From Thermogemmatispora onikobensis (GTDB lineage: Bacteria; Chloroflexota; Ktedonobacteria; Ktedonobacterales; Ktedonobacteraceae): 64,000 nucleotides of DNA. Below are positions 1 through 23,593 of the stretch, piece by piece. The stretch's first letter is position 1, and each line of letters starts with the position of its first letter. The stretch covers positions 1 to 64,000 of the forward strand of contig NZ_BDGT01000013.1 in assembly GCF_001748285.1 (NCBI RefSeq), written 5' to 3'. The notes under the pieces are model-generated. The model saw only the letters and a program-made list of their open reading frames with translations, was not told the DNA's origin and did not search any database. Position numbers and translations under genes: made by a program.

Positions 1-1470
1 CACGAGATACTACGACATAAGAATCCATTTATCAATAATTTCACTCTGACAGATTATCGTATCTATATTGATATTATTGATGATTATTATGAAGATACCG
101 GCGACGATGATAATATGGTTGTTAATGATAAATATGTAAAAACACTAGTAATAAGAAAATCTCAATCTCAAGATAGAAAACTGGAACTTCTGATTCAAAG
201 ATTACAAAAGCAAAATATTGATGAAGAGATAATGACAAATTTGTTAAATAAAATAGGAAAGCTCTATGATAGAGATGATAAAATAGAGTTTTTATTGACA
301 TTAGTAAGAACTGAGGGGTTGACTGTCAGGTTTCGCTCTGATTGTGTCATGCTGCTGGCTGGGATGCTAGAGAGCTACGGCGATGAGAAGGCGATAAAGA
401 TCCTCCTGTCACTGGTGAAGAATAAGAAGTTACCTGAAAAGGTGCGCGGCGATTGTATAGGAGTATTGACCAGTATATTAAGTAGATATTATAATAAGAA
501 GGCCATAGAGGTTCTGCTGTCATTGGTGAGAAATGAGAAGTTATCTATAGATATGCGTCAAAAATGTGTAGAAGGCTTGGCGAAGGTACTGGGCGGTCAT
601 GGCGATGGTGAGGCGATAGAGGTTCTGCTGTCATTGGTGAGGGACGAGCGGCTAGCGATAGTGTTACGCCTGGTCTGTGTCGAGGAGCTGGGCCACCTGG
701 CCAAAGAGGTCCCGCTAGCGCAGACGGGAGCGCTAGCTGCGCTGGCCGATCTCAGTCTGCACAGCGAAGTGCGTGCTGCTCTGGCTCTTGCTTTGGGGCA
801 AAGTGAACATCGCACCCTTGCTGCTCCCCTGCGCGTCTGTTGGCAGCGTGAGCAAGATGAGAGACTCAAACGCACCCTGCTGTTGGCCCTGGTATGCCTT
901 GATGATCTAGATCTGAGCGTTCTGGCAGAGGCTGAAGAGCTGGCTCTCCAGGGCCAGCCTGATAGGCTTTCCTCTTCAGAGAGTGCCCTATGGAAATCCC
1001 ATTTACCTGAGTATCTGGTAAAGCATAGCGGGGCAGAGACGCTGGGGCGCTTGCTGAGGAGGAGTCGGTTTGCGAGGGGACAGCTCTCGCTCTCGTTGAT
1101 AGAGGCAATAGAGGCCGCTGAACGTCGCGACCTGGTGCCTATGCTGCTCGACGTCTTGGAGCACTCATCGATGAAGGCGGCACTGATTAGCCTCAGAGGC
1201 GCAAAGCTCTGGAGACTCATACAGGCGATCAGCCAGCTCGGCGAAACGCCCGAAGTCGCCAGGCGCCTGCTCGCCCTCTTTCAAAAGGCAGTGATAGATT
1301 CCAACCTTTCGGTCCGCTACTGGGTAGTTGATTGCCTTTTCGAAGCGCTCTGGCACGTCACGCGGCGGGCTGGCCTGCTGGTCGTCGAACGCCCGCGCGG
1401 CAGCCAACGCTACGTCCTGCTCCCGCGCCGCGGCTCCAGTCCTGCCGACGGCCTGCCTAACCTCTCCTAG
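1..1470 (+). CDS. HEAT-repeat protein, C-terminal part (5' end outside window)
   Basis: The frame is open from base 1, with no stop before the first ATG at 115, so this is probably the 3' part of a longer gene; 489 codons are visible. The first ~110 residues are charged and Lys/Asn/Ile-rich. From about residue 95 there are 37-residue HEAT-like units of the type 'LLSLVRNEKL...MR..CVEGLAKVL'. The C-terminus ends with an 'EALWHVTRRAG' element that closely matches the end of the NACHT-HEAT protein at 16116-19319 ('EALWRISRRLG'). This suggests a paralogue whose NACHT ATPase would lie left of the window (inference). Base composition changes strongly inside the gene, from AT-rich before about 350 to GC-rich after about 590. 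A solenoid scaffold or sensor role is likely; the ligand is unknown. Confidence 0.75.
   Translation, partial: HEILRHKNPFINNFTLTDYRIYIDIIDDYYEDTGDDDNMVVNDKYVKTLVIRKSQSQDRKLELLIQRLQKQNIDEEIMTNLLNKIGKLYDRDDKIEFLLTLVRTEGLTVRFRSDCVMLLAGMLESYGDEKAIKILLSLVKNKKLPEKVRGDCIGVLTSILSRYYNKKAIEVLLSLVRNEKLSIDMRQKCVEGLAKVLGGHGDGEAIEVLLSLVRDERLAIVLRLVCVEELGHLAKEVPLAQTGALAALADLSLHSEVRAALALALGQSEHRTLAAPLRVCWQREQDERLKRTLLLALVCLDDLDLSVLAEAEELALQGQPDRLSSSESALWKSHLPEYLVKHSGAETLGRLLRRSRFARGQLSLSLIEAIEAAERRDLVPMLLDVLEHSSMKAALISLRGAKLWRLIQAISQLGETPEVARRLLALFQKAVIDSNLSVRYWVVDCLFEALWHVTRRAGLLVVERPRGSQRYVLLPRRGSSPADGLPNLS
505..641 (+). repeat. 26-bp direct repeat inside HEAT gene
   Basis: Positions 505-530 and 616-641 are identical over 26 bases, with a period of 111 bp (37 codons). 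They code for the same stretch of two adjacent HEAT units. Such identity points to recent unit duplication or gene conversion. Confidence 0.85.
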
Positions 1471-7263: not shown

Positions 7264-9372
7264 TTAGATGACAGCGATGAGAACAAGCACCTGCTGCGGG
7301 GGAACCAGAGAGGCCAGCTCAGGATCGCGTTCTGCCACCGTCAATGTCAGGCTGAGCGAGGTATTGGCAGGCACCTGAGAGAGCAGGGGAACAATACTGA
7401 CGGTCGTGTTTTGTCCCGGCGCCAGCGGGCCGCCGCCGGCGGGCGTGATCTGCAACGGCGGGTTACTCTTATCGACGGTAATGGTCCAGTTGAGCGGCGC
7501 CTTGCCGCCATTCGTGATGGTTACAGTCTGGGCCTTCGGCGTCGTCCCGTGCGGCACATCGAAGATGAGGATCGTGGGTTCAACAGTAATCGTGGGCAAG
7601 GCTGGCGCCTGCACCGTCAAAGCAACCGGAATTTCTTGTCTGAGCGAGCCGGCACTGAAGATCAGACGTCCCTGATAGCTTCCTGGGGCCAGGCCAGCCG
7701 CGTTGACCTGCACGCTCACCGTGGCGCGCACCCCGGGGGCTAGCGTCCCTGCCGTCGGCGTGGCTCCCAGCCACTGCTCTCCGTTGTTACCTGTACTACT
7801 TGTCAGGGACCAGCTCAGCGTGAGGCCACCGCTGTTCTGCAGCGTCAGCGACTGCGGAGCAGGATTCTGACCCTGGGTCGTTGTGAAGCTGAGAGCAGAC
7901 GGCGTCAGGGCCAGCTGGCCCGGTGCCACCACGTGCAGATTGACCGTCAACTGTGGTTCATCCCCCAGGCCACGACGGCTCTCAAAGAACACCGTCCCCT
8001 GATAGTCTCCCACAGCGAGCGAGGCAGGCGAGACCGTCACGCTGAGCGTGATGCTGGTTCCGGCCTCCAGGTGACCAGCGCTCGGTGTGACCTGCAGCCA
8101 GACCCCGCCGGCCTTGGTACTCACGTGGCTGCTCCAGTCAAGCGCCTGCTGGCTGTGATTCTGCAGAGCAACGGTCTGCGCCAGTGGGGCCTGCGCGCCG
8201 CTACTTGCCGTGTAGCTCAAACTGGCGGGCGCGATACTCAGGGTGGCCGAGGAACCCAGGACCGTCATGGTGACCGTCAAGACCTGCGCGTTTTTCCCCT
8301 GCTCGCCCGCCTGCTGGACAAAGGTCACATGGGCTGTATAGCTGCCGGCTGTCAGCTTGCCGCGCTGAGCCACCAGTTTCACCACTTCGCTCCCGACAAC
8401 GCTGCCGCTGGCCGGATCTACTTGCAGCCAGGAACGATCGCTACTGGCCCGCCAGTTCAGCTGACCGCCGCCAGCGTTGAGCAAGGTAATTGCCAGCTGC
8501 GTCGTCGTCCCTGGAAGATCGGCCCCCAGGTCAACACTGTAATCGGAAAGCCTCAGCTGCGGCGGCGTTGCCGTTGAAGGCAGCACAGTAATGGTCGTCG
8601 CGATGCTCAGCAGCTGCGTCTCATCGACGACCAGAAGCTGGTGTTCTCCAGGCTGCCAGTCCTGCGTTACGGTCACCTGAAGAGCAAAGGCGCCAATGGC
8701 ATTGGCCTGCACGCGCAATGGCTGACCGCGGGCGTCTCGTAATGGGATTGTTCCATCACGCTGCAAGGCGAGCAGGTCGCCGGCTCCAAATCCTTTGCCA
8801 ACCAGGGTCAGGCTCTCATTGAAGTGCAGCTGGCGCGGAATCACCGTCAGTGAAGGCGTCAGCGTCGCAACCGACCAGCGGCGGGTGAAGAACAGATAGG
8901 TCAGTGCCGCACTCATCGCCAGCACTACCAGGAACAACACCAACAAGACGCGCAGCAGGAGATGGCGTCGATGCAAAGAAGGGCCTGAAGACACGATCTC
9001 GTAGGCGCGATGGCTCCCCCCGCGCTGCATGCGCGCAGGGGAAGGCAAAACCTGCTGGCTCTGCAAGCGCATCGGCTGCGGCTCAGCCTCGTCGGAGCTG
9101 GTGGAGGAAGAAGCCAGCGGCTGGGGCCCCGGCTCCTCCCAGATAGCGGATGGCGGCACCGAAAACGGGCTAGAAAGATAGGGCTGATCCTCGGGGTGCA
9201 GTCCAGCATGATAGCCGATTGGCTGGGGCGAAGCCGGGGGAATGGAGCGTCTCCGAGGCCTCTCTCTTCTCTTCGGCACAGAAGAAGGCGCCAGGGAGCG
9301 CCCACAGTGACGGCACACCTGGGCATAAGCAGGCACTGGTTTATGACAAAAACGGCAACGCTTGGTCTGCAT
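7264..9372 (-). CDS. Zinc-ribbon, single-TM protein with multiple BACON/Ig-like extracellular repeats
   Basis: About 702 residues. The zinc ribbon is at 6-23 ('CRFC...CRHC'), a basic/Pro-rich linker follows, and a TM helix lies at ~138-162 ('LLVLFLVVLAMSAALTYLFF'). One filamin/Ig-like segment comes next, then four to five ~95-residue β-sandwich units from ~280 on. The units carry phrases typical of BACON/ASH-type repeats such as 'LQNSGG..L.WS', 'WLGATPTAGTLAPG' and 'GSYQGRLIFSAG'. BACON modules are proposed to bind carbohydrates or mucins, so an adhesion or glycan-contact role outside the cell is plausible (inference). An in-frame ATG at 9405 is an alternative start; the one chosen puts the ribbon at the N-terminus as in the 5147 protein. 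Confidence 0.8.
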   Translation of the reverse strand: MQTKRCRFCHKPVPAYAQVCRHCGRSLAPSSVPKRRERPRRRSIPPASPQPIGYHAGLHPEDQPYLSSPFSVPPSAIWEEPGPQPLASSSTSSDEAEPQPMRLQSQQVLPSPARMQRGGSHRAYEIVSSGPSLHRRHLLLRVLLVLFLVVLAMSAALTYLFFTRRWSVATLTPSLTVIPRQLHFNESLTLVGKGFGAGDLLALQRDGTIPLRDARGQPLRVQANAIGAFALQVTVTQDWQPGEHQLLVVDETQLLSIATTITVLPSTATPPQLRLSDYSVDLGADLPGTTTQLAITLLNAGGGQLNWRASSDRSWLQVDPASGSVVGSEVVKLVAQRGKLTAGSYTAHVTFVQQAGEQGKNAQVLTVTMTVLGSSATLSIAPASLSYTASSGAQAPLAQTVALQNHSQQALDWSSHVSTKAGGVWLQVTPSAGHLEAGTSITLSVTVSPASLAVGDYQGTVFFESRRGLGDEPQLTVNLHVVAPGQLALTPSALSFTTTQGQNPAPQSLTLQNSGGLTLSWSLTSSTGNNGEQWLGATPTAGTLAPGVRATVSVQVNAAGLAPGSYQGRLIFSAGSLRQEIPVALTVQAPALPTITVEPTILIFDVPHGTTPKAQTVTITNGGKAPLNWTITVDKSNPPLQITPAGGGPLAPGQNTTVSIVPLLSQVPANTSLSLTLTVAERDPELASLVPPQQVLVLIAVI

Positions 9373-9405
9373 TGGTGTGTCCCACTCTCTGACCTTGCTG
9401 CCCAT

Positions 9406-11163: not shown

Positions 11164-11338
11164 TTGCCTGGCCTGGCCCGACCTGATCTGATCTGGTGTT
11201 CAAGTTGGGAGAGGGAAGGGGGCCAGGGCTGAACGAAGCCTGCCATCTGAGGAGTGGAGCGAGGGCGGGAGCAGCCTGGAGTTGCGTGTTTCTCCCAGCT
11301 CGCTTCAGCAGCGAAGCAGCGAAGGAAGAGTCTGCCCT

Positions 11339-13489
11339 ATGCCGATTCGCCAACTGGCCCCGGAGGTCGCAGCCAAAATCGCCGCTGGCGAGGTGGTGGA
11401 GCGCCCCGTCTCGGTCGTCAAAGAATTAATCGAGAACAGCATTGATGCCGGCGCCTCGCAGATTCGCGTCGATCTCATCCGCGGCGGTCTACAGCTGATA
11501 CGGGTGAGCGACAATGGTTGCGGCATCCCTGCAGAGGAGCTGCCGTTAGCCCTGGCGCGCCATGCCACGAGTAAAGTCAGCACGGTTGAGGATCTGGAGC
11601 GCATTCGTTCGCTGGGCTTTCGTGGGGAGGCGCTGGCGAGCGTCGCCGCGGTGGCCGAGGTGGTTTTGATCAGCCGTCCCCGCGGCGCCGCCCAGGGCGC
11701 TCAGGTAAGCGCCTGCAATGGGCAAATTTCGGCAGTCAGTCCTGCGGCCTCGCCCGAGGGCACCATTGTCACGGTGCGCAACCTGTTCAGTGCGGTGCCG
11801 GCGCGTCTGAAGTTTCTGAAGAGCCGTCAGACGGAGGTCAGCCACTGCCTGCATCTGCTCCAGCAGTATGCTCTGGCCTATCCCGAGATTCGCTTTACGG
11901 TCACCAGCGAAGGGCGCGAGGTCTTTACGACCCCTGGCGATGGTCAGCTGGCGACGGTGCTGGTGCAGATGTATGGCCCGGCGGTGGCCCGGCAGATGGT
12001 ACCGCTCAGCGGCCAGTCTGCCGATGATCCCGAGCGCCCGGTGATCAGCGGCTATGTCAGCCGGCCTGCATGCTATAAGAGCACGCGCCAGTATCTCTCT
12101 TTCTTTGTCAATCGCCGGTGGGTTCACAGTCGCTTGCTGATTGCCGCCGTAGAAGAGGCCTACCGAACGCTGCTGCTTAGCGGACGTCATCCTCTGGCGG
12201 TCATCAATATTCAGGTCGACCCGTCCCAGATCGATGTCAACGTGCACCCCGCCAAGACGGAGATTCGCTTCCTGCGCGAGCGCCGGGTCTACGCCGAGTT
12301 GATGCGTGCCGTGCGGCGCGCCGTCCTGGAAGAGGCCGAGGCTCCAGGCTGGCAGGAGGCGCAGCAGTTTGCCCCTGCGGCACCTGCCAGCGCCGTGGAG
12401 GCATCGCCTCCCGTCTCCCCAGTGTCGTCGCCCCTGTCTCCCGAAGAGTCCACCAGAGAGGAACTGGCGACTTCGTTGAGGCCGGAGGCGACCAGGTCGC
12501 AGCAGGCAGGTGCAAAGGAGCGAGGGGTTGCTCCTCTCTCTGATCCTGGTCGGAGCAAAGGCCCTGCGAGCAGCAACGACCTTGGGCTGCGACATGCTTT
12601 TCCCCTTGATAACCCCTGGCTGACGGTCAGCGAGGAGGAACGCGGGGAGCGAGCCGCTCTGCAGTCGCGCCTGTGGCAGAGCCATCTGCGCCCCCAGCAG
12701 GGTGAACCAGGGCCTGGGCGCCAGGCGCTGACAGCCGGGCCTCGCAAGCCCGGGCGGCCTGCACCGGGCGGCGCAGCGCCAGAGCAGGAGCAGGAGCAGG
12801 AGCAGGCCGCCCCGCCGAGGGAAGAAGGGCCTGCTCCTGCTCCTGCTCCGCTTGCCCCGGCTGAGGTCTTACCTGCCGTTCAGCCCGGACCTCGTCGGGA
12901 GCACAGCCACTTTCCTGAGCTACGGGTCATTGGGCAGCTACTCCAGAGCTATATTGTGGCGGAGGGACGCGATGGCCTCTATTTGATCGATCAGCATGCC
13001 GCTCACGAACGTATTATCCTGGAGCGCATGCTGGCCGCCCGCCAGGAGCAGACGTCGCTTGCTCAGGGGCTGCTGACTCCTCTGCGCCTTGACCTCTCGC
13101 CTGCTGAGCTGGAGGCCATCGAGGAGCACCTCGACGATCTACGTGGCCTGGGCTTCGAGCTGGAGGTGCTTGATCACGGGCAGATCCTGGCGCGCGCTGT
13201 TCCTTCTGTGCTTGCCAAGCAGCTCAGCGCACGCTCTCTGCAGGAGCTACTCAAGGACCTGACCGCCCCCGAACACGATGGCTACAGTCAGACCTGGGAG
13301 GAGCATGCTCTGGCCAACATCGCTTGTAAGGCAGCTATTAAAGCCAACTATTTTCTGACCAGCAGCGAAATGCGCGAACTGATCGAGCAGCTCGCCCACA
13401 CCCGTGCCCCGTTTAGCTGCTGTCATGGCCGACCGACGACCATCCATTTCAGCGCTGCCGCTCTAGAACGCGAATTCGGGAGGCGCTAG
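11339..13489 (+). CDS. mutL: DNA mismatch repair protein MutL
   Basis: A 716-residue MutL. The N-terminal GHKL ATPase is shown by 'IAAGEVVERPVSVVKELIENSIDAGA', 'DNGCGI' and 'RGEALASVAAVAEV'. A Pro/Glu/Ala-rich linker occupies ~340-520. The C-terminal domain carries the endonuclease motif DQHA(x)2E(x)4E at 551-562, so this MutL should nick DNA, as expected in bacteria without MutH. The zinc-site partner motif reads 'CCHGRP' where CPHGRP is usual. The ATG at 11339 is preceded by GAAGGAAGAG; a longer frame from 11282 is unlikely. Its stop overlaps the priA start by one base (TAGTG), giving translational coupling. A candidate SOS box overlaps the promoter. Confidence 0.97.
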   Translation: MPIRQLAPEVAAKIAAGEVVERPVSVVKELIENSIDAGASQIRVDLIRGGLQLIRVSDNGCGIPAEELPLALARHATSKVSTVEDLERIRSLGFRGEALASVAAVAEVVLISRPRGAAQGAQVSACNGQISAVSPAASPEGTIVTVRNLFSAVPARLKFLKSRQTEVSHCLHLLQQYALAYPEIRFTVTSEGREVFTTPGDGQLATVLVQMYGPAVARQMVPLSGQSADDPERPVISGYVSRPACYKSTRQYLSFFVNRRWVHSRLLIAAVEEAYRTLLLSGRHPLAVINIQVDPSQIDVNVHPAKTEIRFLRERRVYAELMRAVRRAVLEEAEAPGWQEAQQFAPAAPASAVEASPPVSPVSSPLSPEESTREELATSLRPEATRSQQAGAKERGVAPLSDPGRSKGPASSNDLGLRHAFPLDNPWLTVSEEERGERAALQSRLWQSHLRPQQGEPGPGRQALTAGPRKPGRPAPGGAAPEQEQEQEQAAPPREEGPAPAPAPLAPAEVLPAVQPGPRREHSHFPELRVIGQLLQSYIVAEGRDGLYLIDQHAAHERIILERMLAARQEQTSLAQGLLTPLRLDLSPAELEAIEEHLDDLRGLGFELEVLDHGQILARAVPSVLAKQLSARSLQELLKDLTAPEHDGYSQTWEEHALANIACKAAIKANYFLTSSEMRELIEQLAHTRAPFSCCHGRPTTIHFSAAALEREFGRR

Positions 13490-16095
13490 TGTTTGCCGAA
13501 GTGCTGACCGTGGCCGCCAGTTGGCAAGGCGAGCGGCCTCTGCTGACCTATGAGGTGCCGGCGGAGCTGGCGGGACAGCTTCAGCCGGGCCAGCTGGTGG
13601 CCATCCCCTATGGCGAGCGGCTGGTCGAAGGTATCATCTGGCAGCTGGCGGAGTCCTGTGAGCACAGCCTGCCAGAAACGTTGCGCTCCGTGCATGCGCT
13701 GCTTGACCCGCAGCCGGTGCTCTTGCCCCATCAGCGCGCACTGGCCGAGTGGATGGCCGACTACTACGTCACCTCGCTGGCGCTGGTTGTTCAGCTCATG
13801 CTCCCGCCCGGTCTATTGCAGGGGTCTCGCGCTGTGCTGACCCTCGCCAACGCAGAGCCGCGTGCGACAGCCTCGCTGCCGCTCCAGGCTCTGATCGGTC
13901 TACTCCTGGATGAAGGCGAGATCGATGTAGCCCGCCTGCAGGCGATGCTCGGTCCTACACGCGCCCGAGCCCTGCTCAAGGAGGCTGTGACCAGTGGCCT
14001 GATTGAGCGCGTGCCGCGTCTGGCGGAGCCACGTCTACGTCCGCGGCGTCAGCGCGCCGTTCGACTCTGCCTGGATGGGGAGAAGCTGGCCGCCTGGAAG
14101 CGTCAACTAGCAGAAAGCCTGCCGCCGCATCTGACACCCACTGCGACGCCAGGCACACGAGTGGACCTGCTGCCTCCCTCTCCCCCTCTGCGCCGGCGTC
14201 CACCTGCGGCGGCTCCCCTGTCGGTGCTGCAATCTGCTGCCACGGCCACAGCCTCCGTTGCAGCAGCGCGGGGTGGCCAGAGTCAGGAGAGCCAGCGGGC
14301 CCTGCGCGCGCTGGCTGCCGTCGACTTGCTCGAACACAGCCCGCCAGATGTACTCTGGACGCCGAGCCGCCTGGCGCGCGCCAGTGGCCTCACCCAGACC
14401 CAGCTGCAGCAGCTCGTCGCTGAGGGCGTTCTCGCCATTGAAGAGAACGTAGAAGTACGGCGTGATCCGTTGCGAGAGCGCCCCATTGTGCCCAGCTCTC
14501 CACTGCGGCTTACGCCTGCCCAGGAAGCTGCCTTACGCGCCATCCTTGCCCCTGAAGCTGCTCGGCGTCCCCTGCTCCTGCATGGGGTCACAGGCAGCGG
14601 CAAGACCGAGGTCTATCTGCAGGCCCTGTCGGCCCTCATTGCCCGTGGCAAGAGAGGCCTCGTGCTCGTCCCTGAGATTGCCATTACAGCCCAGGCCATC
14701 CAGCGTGTTGCCGGGCGCTTCCCGGGGCGGGTCGCCATTATCCACAGCGCCCTCAGCCCGGGCGAGCGTTACGATGAATGGCGACGCATTCGGGCCGGTC
14801 AAGTTGATGTCGTCCTTGGCTCGCGCTCCGCCCTCTTTGTTCCCTTGCCTGACCTAGGCATCATCATCCTGGACGAAGAGCACGAGACGGCCTACAAACA
14901 AGAGGAGCGTCGTCCCACCTACCACGCGCGAGAGGCCGCCTGCACCCTGGGGCGGCTTCTCGACATTCCCGTTGTCCTGGGCAGCGCTACCCCTTCCGTG
15001 ACCAGCTTCTACCGTGCCCAACAAGGAGCCTATCAACTGGTGGAGCTGCCCGAGCGCATCGGGGCTCCTCTGCCCCCCGTGGAAATCGTCGACCTGCGCA
15101 GCGAGCTGCATGCTGGCAACACCAGCATCCTCAGTCGTCGTCTGCGCAGCGAGCTGGAGAACGTCCTTGCCCGGCGCCAGCAGGCCATTCTCTACCTCAA
15201 TCGTCGAGGAGCAGCCAGCTGTGTTCTCTGCCGCGAGTGCGGCTATGTCGCCATGTGCGAGCACTGCGACGTACCGCTGACCTATCACGCCACTGAGCGC
15301 ATCCTCCTCTGCCACTACTGCAATCTTCGGCGCCCTGTCTTAACACGCTGTCCCCACTGCGACAATCATGGCCTGCGCTACTTCGGCATCGGCACCGAGA
15401 AGGTGGAGCAGGTGATCCAACAGACCTTCCCCCAGGCCCGACTGCTGCGCTGGGACCGCGACACGGCCCGCACGCGGCGCGCCCATGAGCAGCTCCTGGA
15501 CCGCTTTGCCAATCATGAAGCCGATATACTGATCGGCACCCAAATGATCGCCAAGGGTCTCGACCTGCCCGGCGTAACCCTGGTGGGTGTGGTTGCCGCC
15601 GACATCGCCCTCATGCTGCCGGACTTCGCCGCCACCGAGCGCGCCTTCACCCTCCTCACCCAGGTTGCAGGCCGGGCCGGGCGCGGCAGCGAGTCAGGGC
15701 AGGTCATCATCCAGACCTTCAACCCGGAGCACTTTGCCATTGAAACCGCCTCTCGCCATGCCTACCACGAGTTCTACGCTGCTGAGATCACCCTGCGCCA
15801 GCGCTACGGCTATCCCCCTTTCCGCCAATTTGTCAAGTTCACCTATAGCCATACCAACCGGCGCCGCGCCCAGAATGAGGCCCTTCTCCTGCGCGAGCAG
15901 CTCGATCGCGCTATTGCCGAGCTGGAGTTAGAGGAGACTGACATCGTGGGACCGGCCCCGGCAGTAATGGAGCGCATCCGCGACGAATTCCGCTGGCAGA
16001 TGATTGCGCGCGGTCCCGATCTGCGCCCTCTGCTACGCGCCATCACCATCCCCCCGGGCTGGCACATCGACATCGACCCGGTGAGCACCATGTAA
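13489..16095 (+). CDS. priA: Primosomal protein N' (PriA helicase)
   Basis: An 868-residue superfamily-2 3'-to-5' helicase that reloads the replisome at stalled forks. The N-terminal DNA-binding part is at ~1-200, followed by a variable Ala/Pro-rich insert (~200-300). Walker A 'GVTGSGKTE' lies at 366-374, Walker B 'ILDEEHETAYKQEE' near 460, and a zinc-binding cassette starting at Cys578 supplies paired CxxC motifs ('CRECGYVAMCEHC', 'CHYC', 'CPHC'). Helicase motifs V/VI ('GTQMIAKGLDLPGVTLVG', 'QVAGRAGRG') follow. The start is GTG overlapping the mutL stop. Pairing of mismatch repair with restart functions under one promoter makes sense for a damage response. Confidence 0.97.
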   Translation: MFAEVLTVAASWQGERPLLTYEVPAELAGQLQPGQLVAIPYGERLVEGIIWQLAESCEHSLPETLRSVHALLDPQPVLLPHQRALAEWMADYYVTSLALVVQLMLPPGLLQGSRAVLTLANAEPRATASLPLQALIGLLLDEGEIDVARLQAMLGPTRARALLKEAVTSGLIERVPRLAEPRLRPRRQRAVRLCLDGEKLAAWKRQLAESLPPHLTPTATPGTRVDLLPPSPPLRRRPPAAAPLSVLQSAATATASVAAARGGQSQESQRALRALAAVDLLEHSPPDVLWTPSRLARASGLTQTQLQQLVAEGVLAIEENVEVRRDPLRERPIVPSSPLRLTPAQEAALRAILAPEAARRPLLLHGVTGSGKTEVYLQALSALIARGKRGLVLVPEIAITAQAIQRVAGRFPGRVAIIHSALSPGERYDEWRRIRAGQVDVVLGSRSALFVPLPDLGIIILDEEHETAYKQEERRPTYHAREAACTLGRLLDIPVVLGSATPSVTSFYRAQQGAYQLVELPERIGAPLPPVEIVDLRSELHAGNTSILSRRLRSELENVLARRQQAILYLNRRGAASCVLCRECGYVAMCEHCDVPLTYHATERILLCHYCNLRRPVLTRCPHCDNHGLRYFGIGTEKVEQVIQQTFPQARLLRWDRDTARTRRAHEQLLDRFANHEADILIGTQMIAKGLDLPGVTLVGVVAADIALMLPDFAATERAFTLLTQVAGRAGRGSESGQVIIQTFNPEHFAIETASRHAYHEFYAAEITLRQRYGYPPFRQFVKFTYSHTNRRRAQNEALLLREQLDRAIAELELEETDIVGPAPAVMERIRDEFRWQMIARGPDLRPLLRAITIPPGWHIDIDPVSTM

Positions 16096-16115: not shown

Positions 16116-19100
16116 CTACGGGATGGCCTCGATCCGCACGCATCCCTGGCCTGGCATCAGGCGCACACCCAGACGGCGACTGATGCGCCAGAGCGCCTCA
16201 TAGACGGCGTCGGCGATATCCGTGTCCTGGAGTAGCCCCGTCAGCGTCTGCAGGGTCTCCTGATCCTGGGCGAGCTGCCCGAGCGCCTCCGCCAGGGCAC
16301 GGCGCAAGTACTTGTCTTCCTCCTCGCGACAGAGCAGATGCAGCAGCTGCGGCACAATCGAACGCTCGCCCAGCTGCCCCAGCGTATGGGCGATAGTGCA
16401 GCGCACCGGCAGCTCAACCTCCTGATCGCTCAGCAGCGCCAGTAAGTAGGGTCCCACGCTGCGCTCACCCAAATTGCCCAGCGTACGGGCGATCGCTTCC
16501 CGCATCCAGGAGCCGCGCCGCCGATCAGCCAGCAGCGTCAACAATTGCGGCACCACCCAGCGCTCGCCCAAATGGCCCAAAGCCCCGGCGATCGCCTCCC
16601 GCACCGGCAGCTCAACCTCTTCATCGGCCAGCAGCTGCAGCAGCAAAGGAATGACCGAACGCTCTCCCAGGTAACCCAGCACCACCGCAATAGCATGACG
16701 TACCGAACGGTCGATATATTCATTGTCAAGCAGGCCCAAGAGCTGGGGAATCAGGCTGCGCTCGCCCAGGCGGGCCAGAGCCGCCGCAATCGCATGGCGC
16801 AGCGGCAGTGGCAGGCGTTCGTCGGCGAGCAGACGCAGCAGCTGGGGAGCAACAGAGCGCTCGCCAAGCTGACCCAGGGCTGCCGCCAGCGTATGGCGCA
16901 GCGACAGTGGCAGGCGCTCATCGATCAGCAGGGCCAATAGCTGAGGGGCGACGGAACGCTCGCCGAGTTGACCCAGCGTCGCCGCAATCGCATCACGCAC
17001 CGAGGGATCAACCCCTTCATCCGTTACCAGGCGAAGCAGCTGGGGCGCAATGGAACGCTCCCCCAGGTAGCCCAGAGCGTGAGCGATGGCATAGCGCACC
17101 GAAGGGTCAATCCCCTCATCGGAGAGCAGGCGCAAAAGATGAGGAACAATCGAACGCTCCCCGAGCCGCCCCAGGGCATTCGCAATGGCATAGCGCACCG
17201 AAGCATCGAGCTGCTCATCGACCAGCAGATGCACGAGTGGCAGGGCCAGCGAGCGCTCCCCAAGCTGCCCCAGAGCATCGGCGATGGCATCCCGTACCTG
17301 AACATCGACCCCCTCGTCAGCCAGCAGATGCAAGAGGCCCATGTTGACCCACTCGCCACCGACCTCTGCCAGCACCTCTGCACTGTTGCGCCGGTCCAGC
17401 GGATAAGGCGTCGCGGTCAGCAAGGCAAAGAGACGACTGATGACTTCCTGGCGCAGACCACTCTCGCGCATCGTCGGACGCATCGCCAGGCAGCGCCCCG
17501 CTAACAAGAGATTGGTATGGAAGAGATCGTCACTGGAACGCCGCCGCCCACCATTGCCAAGCAAATGCTGGAGCAGCGGGCTGATATCGCTGACTCGCCC
17601 CGCATAGAGCAGAATCACCTCCTCCCACCAGGGATTACCGCGCCGTTTAATCAGCTCCGATAGCTTTCCATGCTCCACTGCATAGAGAGCACTCAAATAC
17701 TCCTGTAACGTCAAATGGAGAAATCCGTACCAGCCGCGAGCCTGCTCCTTCAAAAGAGTATGCTGCCCGATGATCTCGCTGAAGATCTCCTGACTCTGTT
17801 CAGGATCGAGGCCGATAGTCGGCAAGAAGCGAGCGATTTCCTGTAACAGCTCATCCTCGGGAAAGTAGCGCTGGCCGCGCAAGTGGAAATGCCAGGCGAT
17901 AGCCTCCAGCAACTGCAGCTTGTGCTGAGGTAAAAATTGACTGTGGCGATGAATATCGCGGCTGCTATCCCAACGTGTCAGCAGCGTCTCCACGCAGCGT
18001 CGATAGAGTTCTACACGTCGATCTGGTAGATCCAGCTGCTCTTCGTAGAGCAGGACGATCAGCGAGAGCAGCAGCGGATTGCCGGCCAGGGCCTGGACAC
18101 GAGGGCTGCGTTCGAGACGATAGATCAGATCGTTCGCAGCCTCGGGACCCAGCTGAGAGCCGGTCAGTGCCAGCCAGCGCTGGATGAACTGGCGGATATC
18201 CTCGGGCCGGAAATCGAGGACCTCCAGCTCGCGGAAGCCAGTCAAGCGGCTGCGCTGGTGGTAGCCGGCCTTACGAGCCGTCACCACGATCGGCACCTGG
18301 GGATAGCGCGTTGCCAGCTCTACAATCATCATCACGACAGAACGATAGGTTGACTCAGCCTCCTCTTTATTGGCGCCGGTCAGCGTCTCATCGAGAGCGT
18401 CAAGCAGCAGCAGTGCGCGCCCTTCCTGCAGGCGCGAGTGCATTAACGCCAGCGCAGCCGTGCGAGGAATGCGATAACGCTCCTCCCAGGTCCGCGCAGC
18501 AAATTGAATAATATCGATATGATGAGACGTAGCGGTGGGGCTGGCGGAGACGAAGGTATTCAGCTCGACGAAGATAGGGAGGTCGGGCAGGCCCTCGAGT
18601 TGGCCAGAGAGCGAGCGCAAAGCCAGATACTTCAGGAGGGTTGTCTTGCCGGCCCCGGGGTCGCCCAGCACCACGCTACGGCGATAGCGGCGAATAGCCT
18701 CATCCGGGTCGAGCGTCGAGGCCGTCTGGCTATCGCAATAGCGATGGCCCCTGCGGCAGAGGTCGACGAGATCACCGTTCAACTGCCATGTGTAGCGCTC
18801 CTCATCGAGCTGGTAGCCTGGGCGGGTCTCCTCGTGCAGGCGCACACGGATATAGAGATCGAGCAGGTTGATAGGAAGGTTCATATCAAGGATCTGAAGA
18901 TGAGTCAAGCGGGGATCAACCCGTAGCCCTGCTCGATACTGCTCAAGCGTCTGGCGCAGACAGCGAGCAGAGAGCCGCTGGCGCCAGGCGTTGGCCTCAT
19001 CCTCGCCCTGAGAGGCGCGCAAGCGTCCCAGATAGAGATTCACAGCGGCAGGGATAGCGGCGGCCAGCACAGCCCCCGCCAGAGAGATGAAAGCCACCAC

Positions 19101-19319
19101 GATTGGTGTATTTTCCCACCAGGCGCCGCTACTTGGGGAGCCAGCGAGCAGAGCCACCGCCATCAGCCCTGGCGCTGTCCGAGCGCCTACCGACTGTGCG
19201 GGCCCGCCGGAGGAAAGCGCACCTGGAACAGCGATGGAGCAGCCGACGAAGAGCGCCGAGGCCAGAACCATCGTCCCCATTGTTGCCGTTGCCAGAAGGC
19301 GAAGAGAGCGGGCACACAT
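16116..19319 (-). CDS. Membrane-anchored NACHT ATPase with C-terminal HEAT repeats
   Basis: About 1067 residues. Two hydrophobic segments lie at ~8-30 and ~71-98, which would place the rest in the cytoplasm. A NACHT-type STAND ATPase follows: Walker A 'GDPGAGKTT' at 219-227, Walker B 'LLLLDALDE', and the sensor region 'IVVTARKAGYH'. Residues ~690-1040 are HEAT units of 33 residues, ten of them starting 'GER(S/W)' followed by hydrophobics and 'LL.LL.DE'. The ATG at 19319 has a GAGGAC site; the frame is open further up to 19715, but that stretch is unlike protein. Bacterial NACHT proteins include anti-phage sensors and transcription regulators, and a defence or signalling role is inference. It is convergent with priA, with 20 bp between stops. 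Confidence 0.85.
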   Translation of the reverse strand: MCARSLRLLATATMGTMVLASALFVGCSIAVPGALSSGGPAQSVGARTAPGLMAVALLAGSPSSGAWWENTPIVVAFISLAGAVLAAAIPAAVNLYLGRLRASQGEDEANAWRQRLSARCLRQTLEQYRAGLRVDPRLTHLQILDMNLPINLLDLYIRVRLHEETRPGYQLDEERYTWQLNGDLVDLCRRGHRYCDSQTASTLDPDEAIRRYRRSVVLGDPGAGKTTLLKYLALRSLSGQLEGLPDLPIFVELNTFVSASPTATSHHIDIIQFAARTWEERYRIPRTAALALMHSRLQEGRALLLLDALDETLTGANKEEAESTYRSVVMMIVELATRYPQVPIVVTARKAGYHQRSRLTGFRELEVLDFRPEDIRQFIQRWLALTGSQLGPEAANDLIYRLERSPRVQALAGNPLLLSLIVLLYEEQLDLPDRRVELYRRCVETLLTRWDSSRDIHRHSQFLPQHKLQLLEAIAWHFHLRGQRYFPEDELLQEIARFLPTIGLDPEQSQEIFSEIIGQHTLLKEQARGWYGFLHLTLQEYLSALYAVEHGKLSELIKRRGNPWWEEVILLYAGRVSDISPLLQHLLGNGGRRRSSDDLFHTNLLLAGRCLAMRPTMRESGLRQEVISRLFALLTATPYPLDRRNSAEVLAEVGGEWVNMGLLHLLADEGVDVQVRDAIADALGQLGERSLALPLVHLLVDEQLDASVRYAIANALGRLGERSIVPHLLRLLSDEGIDPSVRYAIAHALGYLGERSIAPQLLRLVTDEGVDPSVRDAIAATLGQLGERSVAPQLLALLIDERLPLSLRHTLAAALGQLGERSVAPQLLRLLADERLPLPLRHAIAAALARLGERSLIPQLLGLLDNEYIDRSVRHAIAVVLGYLGERSVIPLLLQLLADEEVELPVREAIAGALGHLGERWVVPQLLTLLADRRRGSWMREAIARTLGNLGERSVGPYLLALLSDQEVELPVRCTIAHTLGQLGERSIVPQLLHLLCREEEDKYLRRALAEALGQLAQDQETLQTLTGLLQDTDIADAVYEALWRISRRLGVRLMPGQGCVRIEAIP
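16270..17350 (-). repeat. Tandem 99-bp coding repeats (33-aa HEAT units)
   Basis: About eleven units encoded head to tail with a fixed 33-codon period, each carrying 'ALG.LGERS..P.LL.LL.DE....S(V/L)R.AIA'. Uniformity in length and sequence indicates recent expansion. Confidence 0.85.
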
Positions 19320-20023
19320 ACCGTCCTCATTTCTGAGCTTGCGCGCGCTGCATGCGAATAGATACTGCCGCGAGCGGAGAGCTGTGAACCTGGAGTACAC
19401 TTTTGTCGGTATCAAACACATTGGACACATCACCACCTTCGTTTCCCCCGGTGCTGGCGGGCGAAGAGAACAAGGCGGTAGTGCTATGCAATCAAGCCTC
19501 TCTTGCCGCCTGCCACCAGGGGGGAAGAGAGGCAAGGATAAGAGAAGCAAAGTTGGCCCAGGCCCCAGACAGGAGGCTGGCTGTTGCCTGTGACTGCACT
19601 CCTCTTCCTGAGAAGCTGTACTACACTGTGCCAGCAGGCTCACGCGCAACGCTGCAAGAGGTGTATCGAAGGAAGAACGACCCAGGAACAACCCTGTCTG
19701 GAGGCACTGGGGCACCCTGTACCCCGTGGTCTCTCTGCATCCTAGAAAAGAGAATAGTTGTTAGTTTGTCATCTGTCAAAATAATTCCGCTATATGGAAC
19801 TATTCACCATTATTATGGATCTGTTTTGAAAAAGACACTCTTTATAATCTGATCAATAAGAATGAGATTAGCTAAAGAATCATTCGAAAGCTCTGAAGAA
19901 CAGGAAGATGGTGCTGTTCCTGACGCTGTCCAGGAACAGCACCAACGTGAGGTCATGATCCCCGGGCCAGGCGAGCGAAAGCGTTCCTGCGCATGGCGGG
20001 GGAAGGGGCGAAGAGGAAGGTCC
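19320..20023. other. Intergenic region upstream of NACHT gene
   Basis: About 700 bp between two minus-strand genes. 19320-19735 is GC-rich without a credible gene. 19740-19885 is an AT-rich island. The hairpin at 19910-19943 is listed separately. Open frames here lack ribosome sites or recognisable protein character. Confidence 0.5.
19910..19943 (-). terminator. 13-bp perfect hairpin downstream of first sedolisin gene
   Basis: GGTGCTGTTCCTG and its exact complement flank an 8-base loop. It lies ~80 bp past the sedolisin stop on the minus strand. There is no T-tract, so it is either a factor-dependent end or an mRNA-stabilising stem. Confidence 0.5.
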
Positions 20024-21418
20024 TCAGCGGGAGTGGGAGAGCAGCGGACGCATCGGGGCGGAGGAAGGTGGTTGGATCAGCAAAGGAAGCAGCTTGGCCA
20101 CGCGCGGTGTCCCCAGACCGGTCACAGCGTCCCAGCCGGCGCCAGCGCTATAGCCCTGGATGGCGACAGCGTTGCCCTGCCCATCCTGGCCGACAAAGGT
20201 ATTGTCGCCCGAGGTAACATCGTGGAAAGCCTGCGTATAGAGATTCGAGCGTCCGATCGCGTAGAGGGCCGGGTTCAGATTGCCCAGGCGGTGGCCGGCC
20301 AGTTGATCGGCCAGGGCGGCGATACCGGCCCACTGGGGTGAGCCAGCGCTCGTACCACCAAAGCGGAAGACCAGATCTTCGCCCTCGCCCGATGAACTCC
20401 AGACCACCAGCACGCCGCTATCGATGCCGGCGTTAAAGGCCACATCCGGCAGGCCGCGGTAGCCGCCGATCTGGGCAACCCCATTCTGGTAATCTGGCCG
20501 GGGATAGATGGTGCTGAAGCCCCCACCGCTGGCCGCCTGATACTGTGGCTCATCCCAGGCTTCCTCGCCCTGATAGCTCCCCTGCGTGCCGTTCGCTTCC
20601 AGCAGCGTCCCGCCGACTGCCGTCACCAGCGGATCGCTGGCCGGCGAAGAGACACTCAGGAAGTAGGAGTTGCCGTCGCAGGTATACTGAGCCGCGCCCT
20701 GATCACCCGAGGCCGCAAAGAGCGTCATACCTTGCGCCACCGCTTTGGAGAACAGCTCATGCTCCTGCTTGAGCAACTCGGGATCGACGCAGCTCTCACC
20801 TTCACCAAAGCTCTGCGAGATGATATCGCCCAGATTATGCTCGACCGCGTAGCGCGTCGCGTTCAGCACATCGATGTCCTGGTTGGACTTAGCCAGCACC
20901 AGGGTGATCGCTGCATCTGGGGCGATAGCATGGGCCCATTCAACATCAAGGCTGATCTCTGCGGCCCAGCCGACCTGCGTGCTGTCGAAGGAATTGAAAG
21001 GAGGCAGGCCATCGGGCGCCACAATGTTGAAGCTGGGCGGGTCCGGCAAACCGAAGAGCGTATCGAAGGTGTGCAGGTCATGGCGGATCGTCGGACTTTG
21101 GTAGGCGTCGATGATCACGATGGTGTGCCCTTTCCCGGTGATCCCCTTGGCCAGGACAGGGGCAACCTCGTAGGCAGCCTGAATCTGCTTCGGCCCAAAG
21201 CAGGTCGCCGGATTCGTGGTCTGGCACGGGAAGGTGCGGTCCTTGTTCACCGCGCCGGCGTAGATGTACTCGGGCCGGTTGATCACATAGTGCGGTTTGG
21301 CCGCCTGAACGATCTGATTGGCGTAGAAGTGGATCAGCGTCCCTACCAGTAAGCCACACAGGACGATGGCGGTGGCAACCAGGTGCGGCAGCCAGCGCGT
21401 AATGGGGGTTCTCTCCAT
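20024..21418 (-). CDS. S53 (sedolisin/kumamolisin) family serine-carboxyl peptidase 1
   Basis: A 464-residue acid-active endopeptidase. An N-terminal membrane anchor or signal lies at ~8-35. The mature catalytic domain starts around residue 70. The Glu/Asp pair is Glu154 and Asp158 in 'EISLDVEW', the oxyanion Asp239 is in 'SGDQGA', and nucleophile Ser357 is in 'GGTSAGSPQ'. The calcium-site end is 'FHDVTSGDN...GWDAVTGLGTP'. The ~180-residue activation propeptide typical of S53 zymogens is missing. The ATG at 21418 follows a perfect AAGGAGGT at ten bases, so the track start at 21511 is not used. It is adjacent to a close paralogue in the same orientation; both are probably secreted nutrient proteases. 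Confidence 0.93.
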   Translation of the reverse strand: MERTPITRWLPHLVATAIVLCGLLVGTLIHFYANQIVQAAKPHYVINRPEYIYAGAVNKDRTFPCQTTNPATCFGPKQIQAAYEVAPVLAKGITGKGHTIVIIDAYQSPTIRHDLHTFDTLFGLPDPPSFNIVAPDGLPPFNSFDSTQVGWAAEISLDVEWAHAIAPDAAITLVLAKSNQDIDVLNATRYAVEHNLGDIISQSFGEGESCVDPELLKQEHELFSKAVAQGMTLFAASGDQGAAQYTCDGNSYFLSVSSPASDPLVTAVGGTLLEANGTQGSYQGEEAWDEPQYQAASGGGFSTIYPRPDYQNGVAQIGGYRGLPDVAFNAGIDSGVLVVWSSSGEGEDLVFRFGGTSAGSPQWAGIAALADQLAGHRLGNLNPALYAIGRSNLYTQAFHDVTSGDNTFVGQDGQGNAVAIQGYSAGAGWDAVTGLGTPRVAKLLPLLIQPPSSAPMRPLLSHSR

Positions 21419-21781
21419 GAGAATCGTGACCTCCTTGTGAGCTAAACGGGACAATGTGCGCCGCAATCGATACCTTGCGGCACCCATCGATCTTAGTGTA
21501 GGAGGACACAACCGCTTTTGAATAGATAAAAACAGTTAAAACATGGTTGAAAGTAATGATGATCTAGTAAATGTTTGAGAGATACAGAGATAGAAATAAG
21601 CCAACGAAGCATGATGGACAGGGGAAGGGAGCGGTGTGAGGGAGGTAAACCGAGGGAGGGTTGGGCAAGAGAAGCTGGGAAGAGCGAAGAGCCGGGCGGC
21701 CCGGGCGAGGGCCGACGTTGCTCCACCTCTTCCCAGCCTGGTTTGATAGCCAGCCAGGCCCCTGGCTGGCCTGTCGTCATC
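21419..21781. other. Spacer between the two sedolisin genes
   Basis: About 360 bp. 21510-21610 is AT-rich and probably carries the promoter of the left sedolisin on the minus strand, though no clear hexamers were fixed. The remainder is GC-rich and non-coding. Confidence 0.45.
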
Positions 21782-23185
21782 TTACAGAGAGCGAGCGCGT
21801 GCCAGATCGCGGCCCGACGTACCGCAGCCGAAAGCCACTAGCAGCGGCAGGAGGTGGGCCACCCGTGGTGTTCCCCAGCCGGTCACGGGGTCCCAGCCCT
21901 TAGCGGCGGAGTAGCCGTTAATGGTCACCGGGTTGCCATTGGCGTCGGTGCCCGTAAAGGTATTGTTCCCCGTCGTAATGTCGTGGAAAGCCTGCCCGTA
22001 GAGCGGCGAATGGCCGATCAGGTAGAAGGCAGGATTGAGGAAGCCCACGCGATGGTGGCCGAACTGATCGGCCAGGGCCGTAATCCCGGCCCACTGAGGC
22101 GAGCCGGCGCTCGTACCGCCGAAGCGGAAGACCAGATCCTGGCCCAGGCCCGACGAACTCCAGACAGCCAGCACACCGCCGTCGACCGCAGCGTTGTAGG
22201 CTACATCGGGCACGCCGCGATAGCGACCGATTCCGGCGGTGCCGACCTGGTAGAATGGCTTCGGATAGACGGTGCTGAAGCCGCCGCCGCTGGCCACCTC
22301 GTACTGTGGCTCATTCCAGGCCGTCTCGCTCTGATAAGCGCCGGTCTGGCCATCGGCGATCAGCTTCGTTCCTCCCACGCCCGTCACCAGAGGATCACTG
22401 GCTGGCGAGCTCGCGCTGAGGAAATACGAATTGCCATCGCACGTCGGCTGAGCCGCTCCCTGGTCGCCTGAAGAAGCAAAGAGCGTGATCCCCTTCAGCG
22501 TGGCCTCCCGGAACAGCTCGTGCTCCTGGCGCAGCAGCTTCGGGTCGACGCAGCTCTCGCCCTCGCCAAAGCTCTGAGAAATGACGTCGCCCAGATTATG
22601 GCGAATCGCGTAGCGCGTCGCGCTGAGGATATCCGTATCCTGATTGGACTTGGCCAGCACCAGCACGATATGGGCGTCGGGAGCAATAGCGTGGGCCCAC
22701 TCCACATCAAGCGTGATCTCGCCCGCCCAGCTTACCTGGTTCGCATCGTTTGGATCGAAGGGAGTCAATCCATCCGGTGCAATGATGGTGAAAGGTGGGT
22801 CGGGCAACCCGAAGATAGAGTCGAAGGTCTGCAGATCGTGGGCGATGGTGGGACTCTGGTAGGCGTCAATAATAACGATCGAGCGTCCTTTTCCTGTAAT
22901 CCCTTTATTCAGGATCGGGGTGATCTCATATGCCTCGCGAATCTGCTTGGGGCCGTAGCAGTTGGGCGGCGTGGTCGTCTGGCAGCGGAAGGTCGTATCG
23001 CTGCGAGCAACACCAACATACTCGTACTGCGGACGCACTACGGCGAAGCCATGTACGCCGCGAGCCGTCAGTGCTGCCGCACTTGTTCCCCCGCTCAGAC
23101 CAAGGCTGAGCGCCAGCATGGCGCAGACCGCCACTGCGGTAATGAGCAGGCGCGAGAGCCGACGGACGAGAGCTAGATCGTTCAT
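21782..23185 (-). CDS. S53 (sedolisin/kumamolisin) family serine-carboxyl peptidase 2
   Basis: A 467-residue paralogue of the neighbour at 20024-21418, sharing the same landmarks: 'EITLDVEWAHAIAPDAHI', 'SSGDQGAAQPTCDG', 'GGTSAGSPQWAG' and 'HDITTGNNTF...GWDPVTGWGTP'. A hydrophobic N-terminal segment ('LLITAVAVCAMLALSLGLSGGTSAAAL') looks like a cleavable signal peptide, unlike the more anchor-like segment of paralogue 1. It also lacks the S53 propeptide. The ATG at 23185 is preceded by AAGGGGGTC at about eight bases. The tandem arrangement and high similarity indicate gene duplication. It has its own promoter candidate at 23285-23314. Confidence 0.93.
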   Translation of the reverse strand: MNDLALVRRLSRLLITAVAVCAMLALSLGLSGGTSAAALTARGVHGFAVVRPQYEYVGVARSDTTFRCQTTTPPNCYGPKQIREAYEITPILNKGITGKGRSIVIIDAYQSPTIAHDLQTFDSIFGLPDPPFTIIAPDGLTPFDPNDANQVSWAGEITLDVEWAHAIAPDAHIVLVLAKSNQDTDILSATRYAIRHNLGDVISQSFGEGESCVDPKLLRQEHELFREATLKGITLFASSGDQGAAQPTCDGNSYFLSASSPASDPLVTGVGGTKLIADGQTGAYQSETAWNEPQYEVASGGGFSTVYPKPFYQVGTAGIGRYRGVPDVAYNAAVDGGVLAVWSSSGLGQDLVFRFGGTSAGSPQWAGITALADQFGHHRVGFLNPAFYLIGHSPLYGQAFHDITTGNNTFTGTDANGNPVTINGYSAAKGWDPVTGWGTPRVAHLLPLLVAFGCGTSGRDLARARSL

Positions 23186-23593
23186 CGATGTCTGACCCCC
23201 TTTTTTAAAACATAGTGCCTTAAGACAGTAGAGAAAACTCGTGCCTGGTGCGGATAGAGGGGAATAGGAATGGCACCCGCTTATAGTATACATGGTCTTC
23301 CAGCTTTTTTTGAAGAGGAACAGGTTGATAGAAGGTAAAGATCTAGCTTAAGAAATCTAAACATATAGCGCTTCTTTGCCTGCTCGCCTGCTTAAGCGTG
23401 GAATCATCTCTAGCGGCGGATCAGCCGCCCTGTTGCGCTTCACTCTTGCTGTAAAGTCGTTGTCGAAGTCAAAGGCCCGCCACCACGGTGACTGCGTCAC
23501 CTTCTCGCCAGGCCGCTCGTATACTGAAAAAGAAGAGGAAAAGCAAAGCAGCATCACCCAGATGAGGAAGGAAGGAAGGAAGGAGAGATTGCC
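23186..23593. other. Divergent intergenic region
   Basis: About 400 bp between sedolisin 2 (minus) and the surface-protein gene (plus). It contains the minus-strand promoter candidate below, and an AAGGA-repeated ribosome site at 23570-23585 for the plus-strand gene. A TATACT at 23520-23525 may be that gene's -10, but has a poor -35. Confidence 0.5.
23285..23314 (-). promoter_or_regulatory. Promoter candidate of sedolisin 2
   Basis: Minus strand TTCAAA (23309-23314), 18 bp, TATACT (23285-23290). Leader to the ATG is ~95 nt. Confidence 0.4.

Follow-up and report, generated by a model that had tools for sequence, protein, structure and literature searches.

In NACHT proteins, and in STAND proteins (signal transduction ATPases with numerous domains) generally, binding of a ligand frees the NACHT domain for ATP-dependent oligomerization. 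The bacterial NACHT (bNACHT) proteins described in the available part of PMC12169576 are likewise built in three parts, their N-termini being either nucleases or undefined, and other conflict systems of multicellular bacteria, as covered in the available part of PMC7159879, include membrane segments. Here, we describe a putatively membrane-anchored NACHT-HEAT protein of Thermogemmatispora onikobensis, an organism that forms aerial mycelium and spores (PMC5064121, from the part of the source available). Its gene lies within the first 64,000 nucleotides of contig NZ_BDGT01000013.1, the whole of which is referred to as the window. A search of the open-license PubMed Central literature on membrane-anchored NACHT-HEAT proteins found no account of this protein.

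The protein carries a membrane segment at a position where sister proteins have a TIR domain, and its HEAT repeats have been kept in number and order throughout the genus. We favor, with a probability of about 0.5, the reading that it is a membrane-anchored STAND switch that senses a constant ligand and acts at the membrane.

Architecture and the N-terminal slot

The protein scores 55.7 bits against the Pfam NACHT profile (PF05729; curated cutoff, 26.7), which places it among the NACHT NTPases, and its repeats exceed the Pfam cutoffs with 196 bits for HEAT_2 and 97 bits for HEAT_PBS. The Walker B motif of NACHT NTPases is defined by a small residue after the magnesium-binding aspartate, and the pairing of GDPGAGKT with DALDE agrees with that definition. 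Residues 391 to 655 presumably include a winged helix. The layout as a whole is that of the STAND tripartite plan, comprising an N-terminal output slot, a central NTPase, and C-terminal repeats that form a superstructure, so that the combination of sensor, ATP switch, and membrane part proposed in an earlier note on this DNA is supported.

Near-identical copies are present in named congeners, and these support the start codon chosen in that note. The ATG at 19319 and a GAGGA four bases 5′ of it are conserved in 6/6 Thermogemmatispora genomes; moreover, indels among the six species are all multiples of three 3′ of this ATG, whereas some 5′ of it are not.

Of the two N-terminal hydrophobic segments previously noted, the one at residues 73 to 93 is strong (Kyte-Doolittle average of 2.44 over residues 73 to 91) and near-invariant in the genus, and residues 67 to 100, which contain it, have a ratio of nonsynonymous to synonymous substitution rates (dN/dS) of 0.057. 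Strong conservation extends over residues 101 to 205 (dN/dS of 0.077). The other segment, residues 8 to 26, is weakly hydrophobic (1.77), changes rapidly, and carries an indel, and residues 1 to 66 show little constraint (dN/dS of 0.51, compared with 0.50 in the same-frame stretch upstream). A double membrane anchor is uncertain on these grounds, and residues 8 to 26 could serve as a signal peptide or as a weak membrane helix, or be expendable. A lipoprotein anchor was considered and rejected, as the FVGC of the window species reads FVGW, FGW, or CGW in five congeners. By eye, a relative from another Chloroflexota family (L051) begins with a stretch resembling a signal peptide and has a membrane segment after it.

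In 9/9 family members examined, more lysine and arginine residues flank the membrane segment toward NACHT than on its other side, a pattern that predicts a cytosolic NACHT domain; in two of the relatives (L040 and L039) the automatically chosen window missed the best hydrophobic stretch, making their hydropathy and motif values unreliable, but the direction of the charge difference stands. Assignment as a membrane protein, with a transmembrane segment and positive charges on the cytosolic side, is by hydropathy and charge only. In the tree described below, the nearest protein from outside the genus is L040 (G021:C1:4438352-4441276); one in-frame TGA splits it, reflecting either a pseudogene or a sequencing error.

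Relatives were detected (E ≤ 1e-20) in 21 of 47 genomes of the class, all belonging to the same GTDB family. In a tree of 29 NACHT cores, from which G014b (L046) and G027 (L075) are absent because the P-loop pattern missed them, the window protein falls in a clade comprising 21 rows. A membrane segment is present in 13 of these, and the other 8, which have TIR or TIR-like N-termini, all lie on one side of a branch with support of 88/87. Scores against Pfam TIR_2 (cutoff, 28) are 33.5 for a Thermogemmatispora paralog, 41.4 for G022, and 26.3, just under the cutoff, for G011, and among the five N-termini scanned, those of G026 and G014b had no Pfam TIR match. G026 and G024 were labeled as TIR by eye, and G014b has neither a TIR domain nor a membrane segment before NACHT. 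Because the clade mixes membrane and TIR N-termini at the same position, the output slot was switched between the two at least once, supporting the view, already put forward in the earlier note, that the membrane segment takes the place of an enzymatic domain.

A scan of the T. onikobensis genome (5,556,502 bases in 112 contigs) returned 13 NACHT-profile matches, and the window protein alone has a membrane segment before NACHT among the 12 whose N-termini were inspected; the thirteenth, L115, has no frame of >300 amino acids at the match. In a wider search of 400 genomes, 42 of which were positive at E ≤ 1e-25, no membrane segment precedes NACHT at any of the 12 more distant Chloroflexota loci inspected (L096 to L107). 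Three by-products of these searches may be recorded. One of the 13 matches in T. onikobensis, L112 (G000:C28), is a false match to the Pfam NACHT profile and looks like transcription terminator Rho. Eight of the distant loci (L098 to L103, L106, and L107) represent a Chloroflexota NACHT family whose C-terminal domain, alike among several genera, appears from a sequence motif to resemble formylglycine-generating enzyme. The NACHT protein at L096 has an odd low-complexity C-terminal tail with a long run of ALDLDRDLAL-like repeats.

Conservation of the repeat array

The solenoid matches itself at an offset of 33 residues with an identity of 0.576, compared with a maximum over offsets 20 to 44 that never exceeded 0.16 in 500 shuffles, and ten LGxLGER anchors are spaced at exactly 33 residues. 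The description of this region as at least ten almost identical 33-residue repeats was right in its period, which is exact over eleven units, but not in its degree of identity, which averages just 0.553 between units at the amino acid level and 0.602 at the nucleotide level (best pair, 0.788 in amino acids). By this measure, the solenoid is composed of regular but old units. An AlphaFold2 model built from six near-identical sequences, and confident for the solenoid only, has paired helices with predicted local distance difference test (pLDDT) values of mostly 80 to 93. A Foldseek comparison of the model with the PDB returned alphaRep and karyopherin/CAND HEAT proteins at low query-normalized TM-scores, which are uninformative on function.

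Neither the number of repeats nor their order varies across 6/6 Thermogemmatispora species. For 11/11 units in 5/5 congeners, the positional counterpart is also the most similar repeat, in both protein and DNA. The six-species alignment of the solenoid has zero gap columns and no indels, and its mean dN divided by mean dS is 0.044 over 15 species pairs; since pairwise dS to congener G004 is 1.4 to 1.5, near saturation, the dN/dS ratios rest mainly on closer pairs. From the positional matches, the lack of gaps, and this ratio, it follows that repeat number has been constant since the six species diverged. Between species, the repeat-variable positions changed in 6 of 55 cells in helix B and in 15 of 44 in helix A (P = 0.007, Fisher test, post hoc, the helix faces having been picked after viewing the per-repeat data). 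The lower rate in helix B is consistent with a conserved binding face.

Fast turnover of the repeats by recombination, as the earlier note had proposed, is therefore contradicted within the genus and was rejected. Repeat-number variation and diversifying selection among close relatives, which characterize fast-diversifying repeat receptors, were both absent. That note had itself named repeats conserved in number and sequence across distant relatives, with housekeeping neighbors, as an observation that would refute its reading, and within the genus the gene has a constant array and is syntenic with mutL, priA, and SRP54. Across genera, turnover fares better: arrays misalign repeat by repeat, and the best-register identity is ≤0.40, only slightly higher than overall means of 0.29 to 0.38, in arrays with ≥5 comparable units, although the repeat finder was built on a consensus from the window protein and could overlook divergent units in other proteins. 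Because the array is fixed within Thermogemmatispora but differs across genera, it was rebuilt or homogenized before the genus radiated and frozen afterwards. A visually regular repeat array is, on its own, no sign of rapid turnover.

The TIR paralog and the locus

A TIR-NACHT-HEAT paralog lies about 15 kilobases from the membrane NACHT-HEAT gene in the opposite orientation, with 43 to 45% identity to it in the NACHT region. Its C-terminal part is in the window and its N-terminal part is on contig C70; from the arrangement in congeners, we infer that the halves are joined across the contig break. In three species pairs, the paralog's sensor has a dN/dS of 0.59 to 0.66 and 5 to 33 gap columns, whereas the membrane protein, compared over these pairs, has values of 0.033 to 0.044 and an ungapped alignment. 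Differences cluster in an island directly after NACHT (residues 687 to 986), where dN reaches 0.35, and the body outside this hypervariable island is nearly identical between species (window plus L049; L030, L031, and L036). Between G003 and G005, dS is 0.042 in the NACHT core of the paralog and 0.19 in the adjoining NlpC gene, as opposed to 0.43 to 0.65 in proline dehydrogenase, the short-chain dehydrogenase/reductase (SDR), and the membrane protein. The value for the NACHT core, being far below those of the neighbors, points to recent exchange of the paralog between species.

The paralog has the sequence signature expected of an arms-race receptor. In G001, it is truncated to residues 762 to 1235 with both flanks in place, and the contig of G004 stops short of the locus. 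The glutamate in the KEL stretch of the TIR domain, presumably the catalytic TIR glutamate, is kept in G005 and G002 and replaced by valine in G003 (L030). The two proteins of the locus share a switch and differ in their N-termini and in the evolution of recognition.

Wherever the fetched congener stretches reach, gene order is kept as NlpC, proline dehydrogenase, SDR, MutL, PriA, NACHT, two subtilase-like genes, extracytoplasmic function (ECF) sigma factor, helix-turn-helix protein, methyltransferase, and SRP54. The same neighbors were found beside relatives in other genera at 0 of 6 loci. The NACHT gene looks monocistronic: it is preceded by a hairpin resembling a terminator and by a promoter-like site (TTGACA-17-TATTCT, about 430 bases 5′ of the start) that is conserved, so it is probably transcribed alone, and an operon with the upstream proteases was rejected because these two elements intervene. 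The leader of about 430 bases between the promoter-like site and the start codon (19320-19750) is poorly conserved. The coordinates of these features are collected in Table 1.

Two other sets of genes in the window may be mentioned. A tandem pair of peptidase genes occupies positions 20024-23293; the two share about 67% identity, match Pfam Peptidase_S8, and are presumably S53-like. Positions 7264-9405 encode a 713-amino-acid protein with BACON/Hydin-type Ig-like domains that is syntenic in the genus.

TABLE 1 Features of the NACHT-HEAT gene and its surroundings (positions in the window)
Feature	Positions	Strand	Basis or remark
NACHT-HEAT protein, predicted membrane-anchored	16116..19319	−	Open frame, 1067 amino acids; start supported
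First hydrophobic segment, residues 8-26	19242..19298	−	Kyte-Doolittle 1.77; fast-changing, indels
Variable residues 27-72, between hydrophobic segments; predicted to lie outside the cell membrane	19104..19241	−	Alignment; side from charge pattern
Main transmembrane segment (predicted), residues 73-93	19041..19103	−	Kyte-Doolittle 2.49; positive charges on NACHT side
NACHT NTPase domain, residues 213-384	18168..18683	−	Pfam PF05729
Walker A GDPGAGKT, residues 219-226	18642..18665	−	Sequence; invariant in 6/6 Thermogemmatispora
Walker B DALDE, residues 307-311	18387..18401	−	Sequence; invariant in 6/6 Thermogemmatispora
NACHT C-terminal helical region with FLHLTLQEYL motif, residues 391-655	17355..18149	−	dN/dS 0.019
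HEAT solenoid, residues 657-1019 (eleven units of 33 residues in tandem)	16263..17351	−	Offset self-identity, unit comparison, AlphaFold2
C-terminal cap, residues 1020-1067	16119..16262	−	Sequence; AlphaFold2: helices and low-confidence beta hairpin
Shine-Dalgarno-like GAGGA	19324..19328	−	Kept in 6/6 species
Promoter-like site TTGACA-17-TATTCT	19751..19779	−	10/12 consensus matches; TTGACA invariant 6/6
Terminator-like hairpin 3′ of upstream protease gene	19909..19944	−	15-pair stem
mutL	11282-13489	+	Syntenic in congeners
priA	13489-16095	+	Convergent with NACHT gene; syntenic in congeners
TIR-NACHT-HEAT paralog, C-terminal (sensor) part	1..1470	+	N-terminal part on contig C70 (L049 1-2184)

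Proposed function and comparison with known systems

In the mechanism that we favor, the N-terminal segment would anchor the protein in the cell membrane, leaving the NACHT domain and HEAT solenoid on the cytosolic side, as the charge pattern suggests. The solenoid, probably via its helix-B face, would bind a ligand that has been constant over the lifetime of the genus, a reading suggested by the 11/11 positional matches in 5/5 congeners, the ungapped solenoid, the dN/dS of about 0.04, and the helix-B bias. Candidate ligands are a guarded host component or some trait of invaders that does not vary. Once bound, the ligand would free NACHT for ATP-dependent oligomerization, and the oligomers would cluster the membrane segments, making the membrane the site of output via permeabilization or partner recruitment; in sister proteins, TIR would fill this slot.

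Several observations weigh against this reading. The gene lies outside defense islands and is neither patchy nor diversifying, which weakens an immune role: instead of the defense-island or patchy distribution that is usual, though not obligatory, for bNACHT genes, it occurs with core synteny in 6/6 congeners. The membrane segments show no general enrichment of small-xxx-small helix-packing motifs (shuffle P values of 0.02 to 1.0). Outside the solenoid, AlphaFold2 gave a poor model (mean pLDDT of 55), uninformative on the switch and the membrane part.

The same distribution lends some weight to a housekeeping or developmental transducer, in which a membrane STAND protein would sense a cell-intrinsic cue, such as envelope state, a metabolite, or mycelium and spore development, unrelated to invaders. 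The gene is intact in all of the congeneric genomes, keeps its synteny with mutL and priA and, on contigs that extend far enough, with SRP54, and is conserved about as well as these neighbors (segment identities of congener proteins to those of the window of 88 to 96% for NACHT-HEAT, 86 to 97% for PriA, and 79 to 94% for MutL), and the organism produces aerial mycelium and spores. We nevertheless regard this explanation as possible but somewhat doubtful, given that the nearest relatives exchange the N-terminus for TIR, that the locus also holds the TIR paralog, which resembles an arms-race gene, and that no developmental gene was recognized among the neighbors scanned. It is unlikely, in our judgment, that the membrane segment merely positions the protein and that output comes from a partner recruited to the NACHT domain or the linker. 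There is a single clearly hydrophobic helix, its packing motif is not enriched, and residues 101 to 205 are strongly conserved, all of which would suit such an arrangement; the location of the membrane segment at the position of TIR in sister proteins argues against it.

A bacterial version of a sensor/helper pair of nucleotide-binding leucine-rich repeat receptors (NLRs), with the TIR paralog sensing invaders and making a signal derived from nicotinamide adenine dinucleotide (NAD) that the membrane protein would receive and act on at the membrane, is suggested by analogy and seems highly improbable: among the genomes in the tree, the two types occur together only in Thermogemmatispora, and the membrane protein of G001 is intact despite its partner's loss of the TIR-NACHT part. 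Least credible is the model of the earlier note, a rapidly recombining antiphage recognition protein. Tandem repeats joined to NACHT and arrays that differ between genera would be expected of such a receptor, but the repeats are constant in number and order across the six species, free of indels, and under purifying selection, and the gene has a core-genome location.

One conserved locus holds paralogous STAND receptors of opposite character, a frozen sensor with a membrane segment versus a hypervariable sensor with TIR. The pair lends itself to comparing the role of the N-terminal output slot and the division between constant and changing recognition in a bacterium that forms mycelium.

NCBIfam and PADLOC scans of the window protein yielded no full-length match to a known defense model. 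Its PADLOC matches were to the repeats or weak, the best in the NACHT region being PDC-S60 at 19 bits. Against EruA, an antiphage NACHT (NCBIfam NF058535), the best aligned stretch is at the start of NACHT, but the score of 65 bits, compared with a cutoff of 1000, does not make it a member; a literature search on EruA found the name only for an unrelated protein. The alphaRep artificial HEAT proteins, with consensus-like repeats, were the best PDB sequence matches and the top fold match, but these are designed binders, and shared function is not implied.

The membrane-associated conflict systems described in the available text of PMC7159879 are similar in combining NTPases with membrane segments and in presumably functioning close to the membrane; they are multigene systems, however, and no such partners were recognized among the window neighbors scanned. 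Plant helper NLRs such as NRG1 (PMC10410763, as far as that source was available) likewise provide a conserved, membrane-acting NLR beside TIR-containing sensors, an analogy in which homology is claimed only at the level of the STAND NTPase. With antiphage bNACHT proteins such as bNACHT25, as presented in the accessible part of PMC12169576, the window protein shares the central NACHT, the C-terminal sensor, and the N-terminal output slot, differing in its membrane segment, where bNACHT25 has a PD-(D/E)XK nuclease, in its HEAT solenoid, and in its conserved place in the core genome. The TIR-NACHT-HEAT paralog and its clade are alike in the NACHT region and in a C-terminal HEAT-like sensor, but they have TIR in place of the membrane segment and a sensor that is degenerate and variable.

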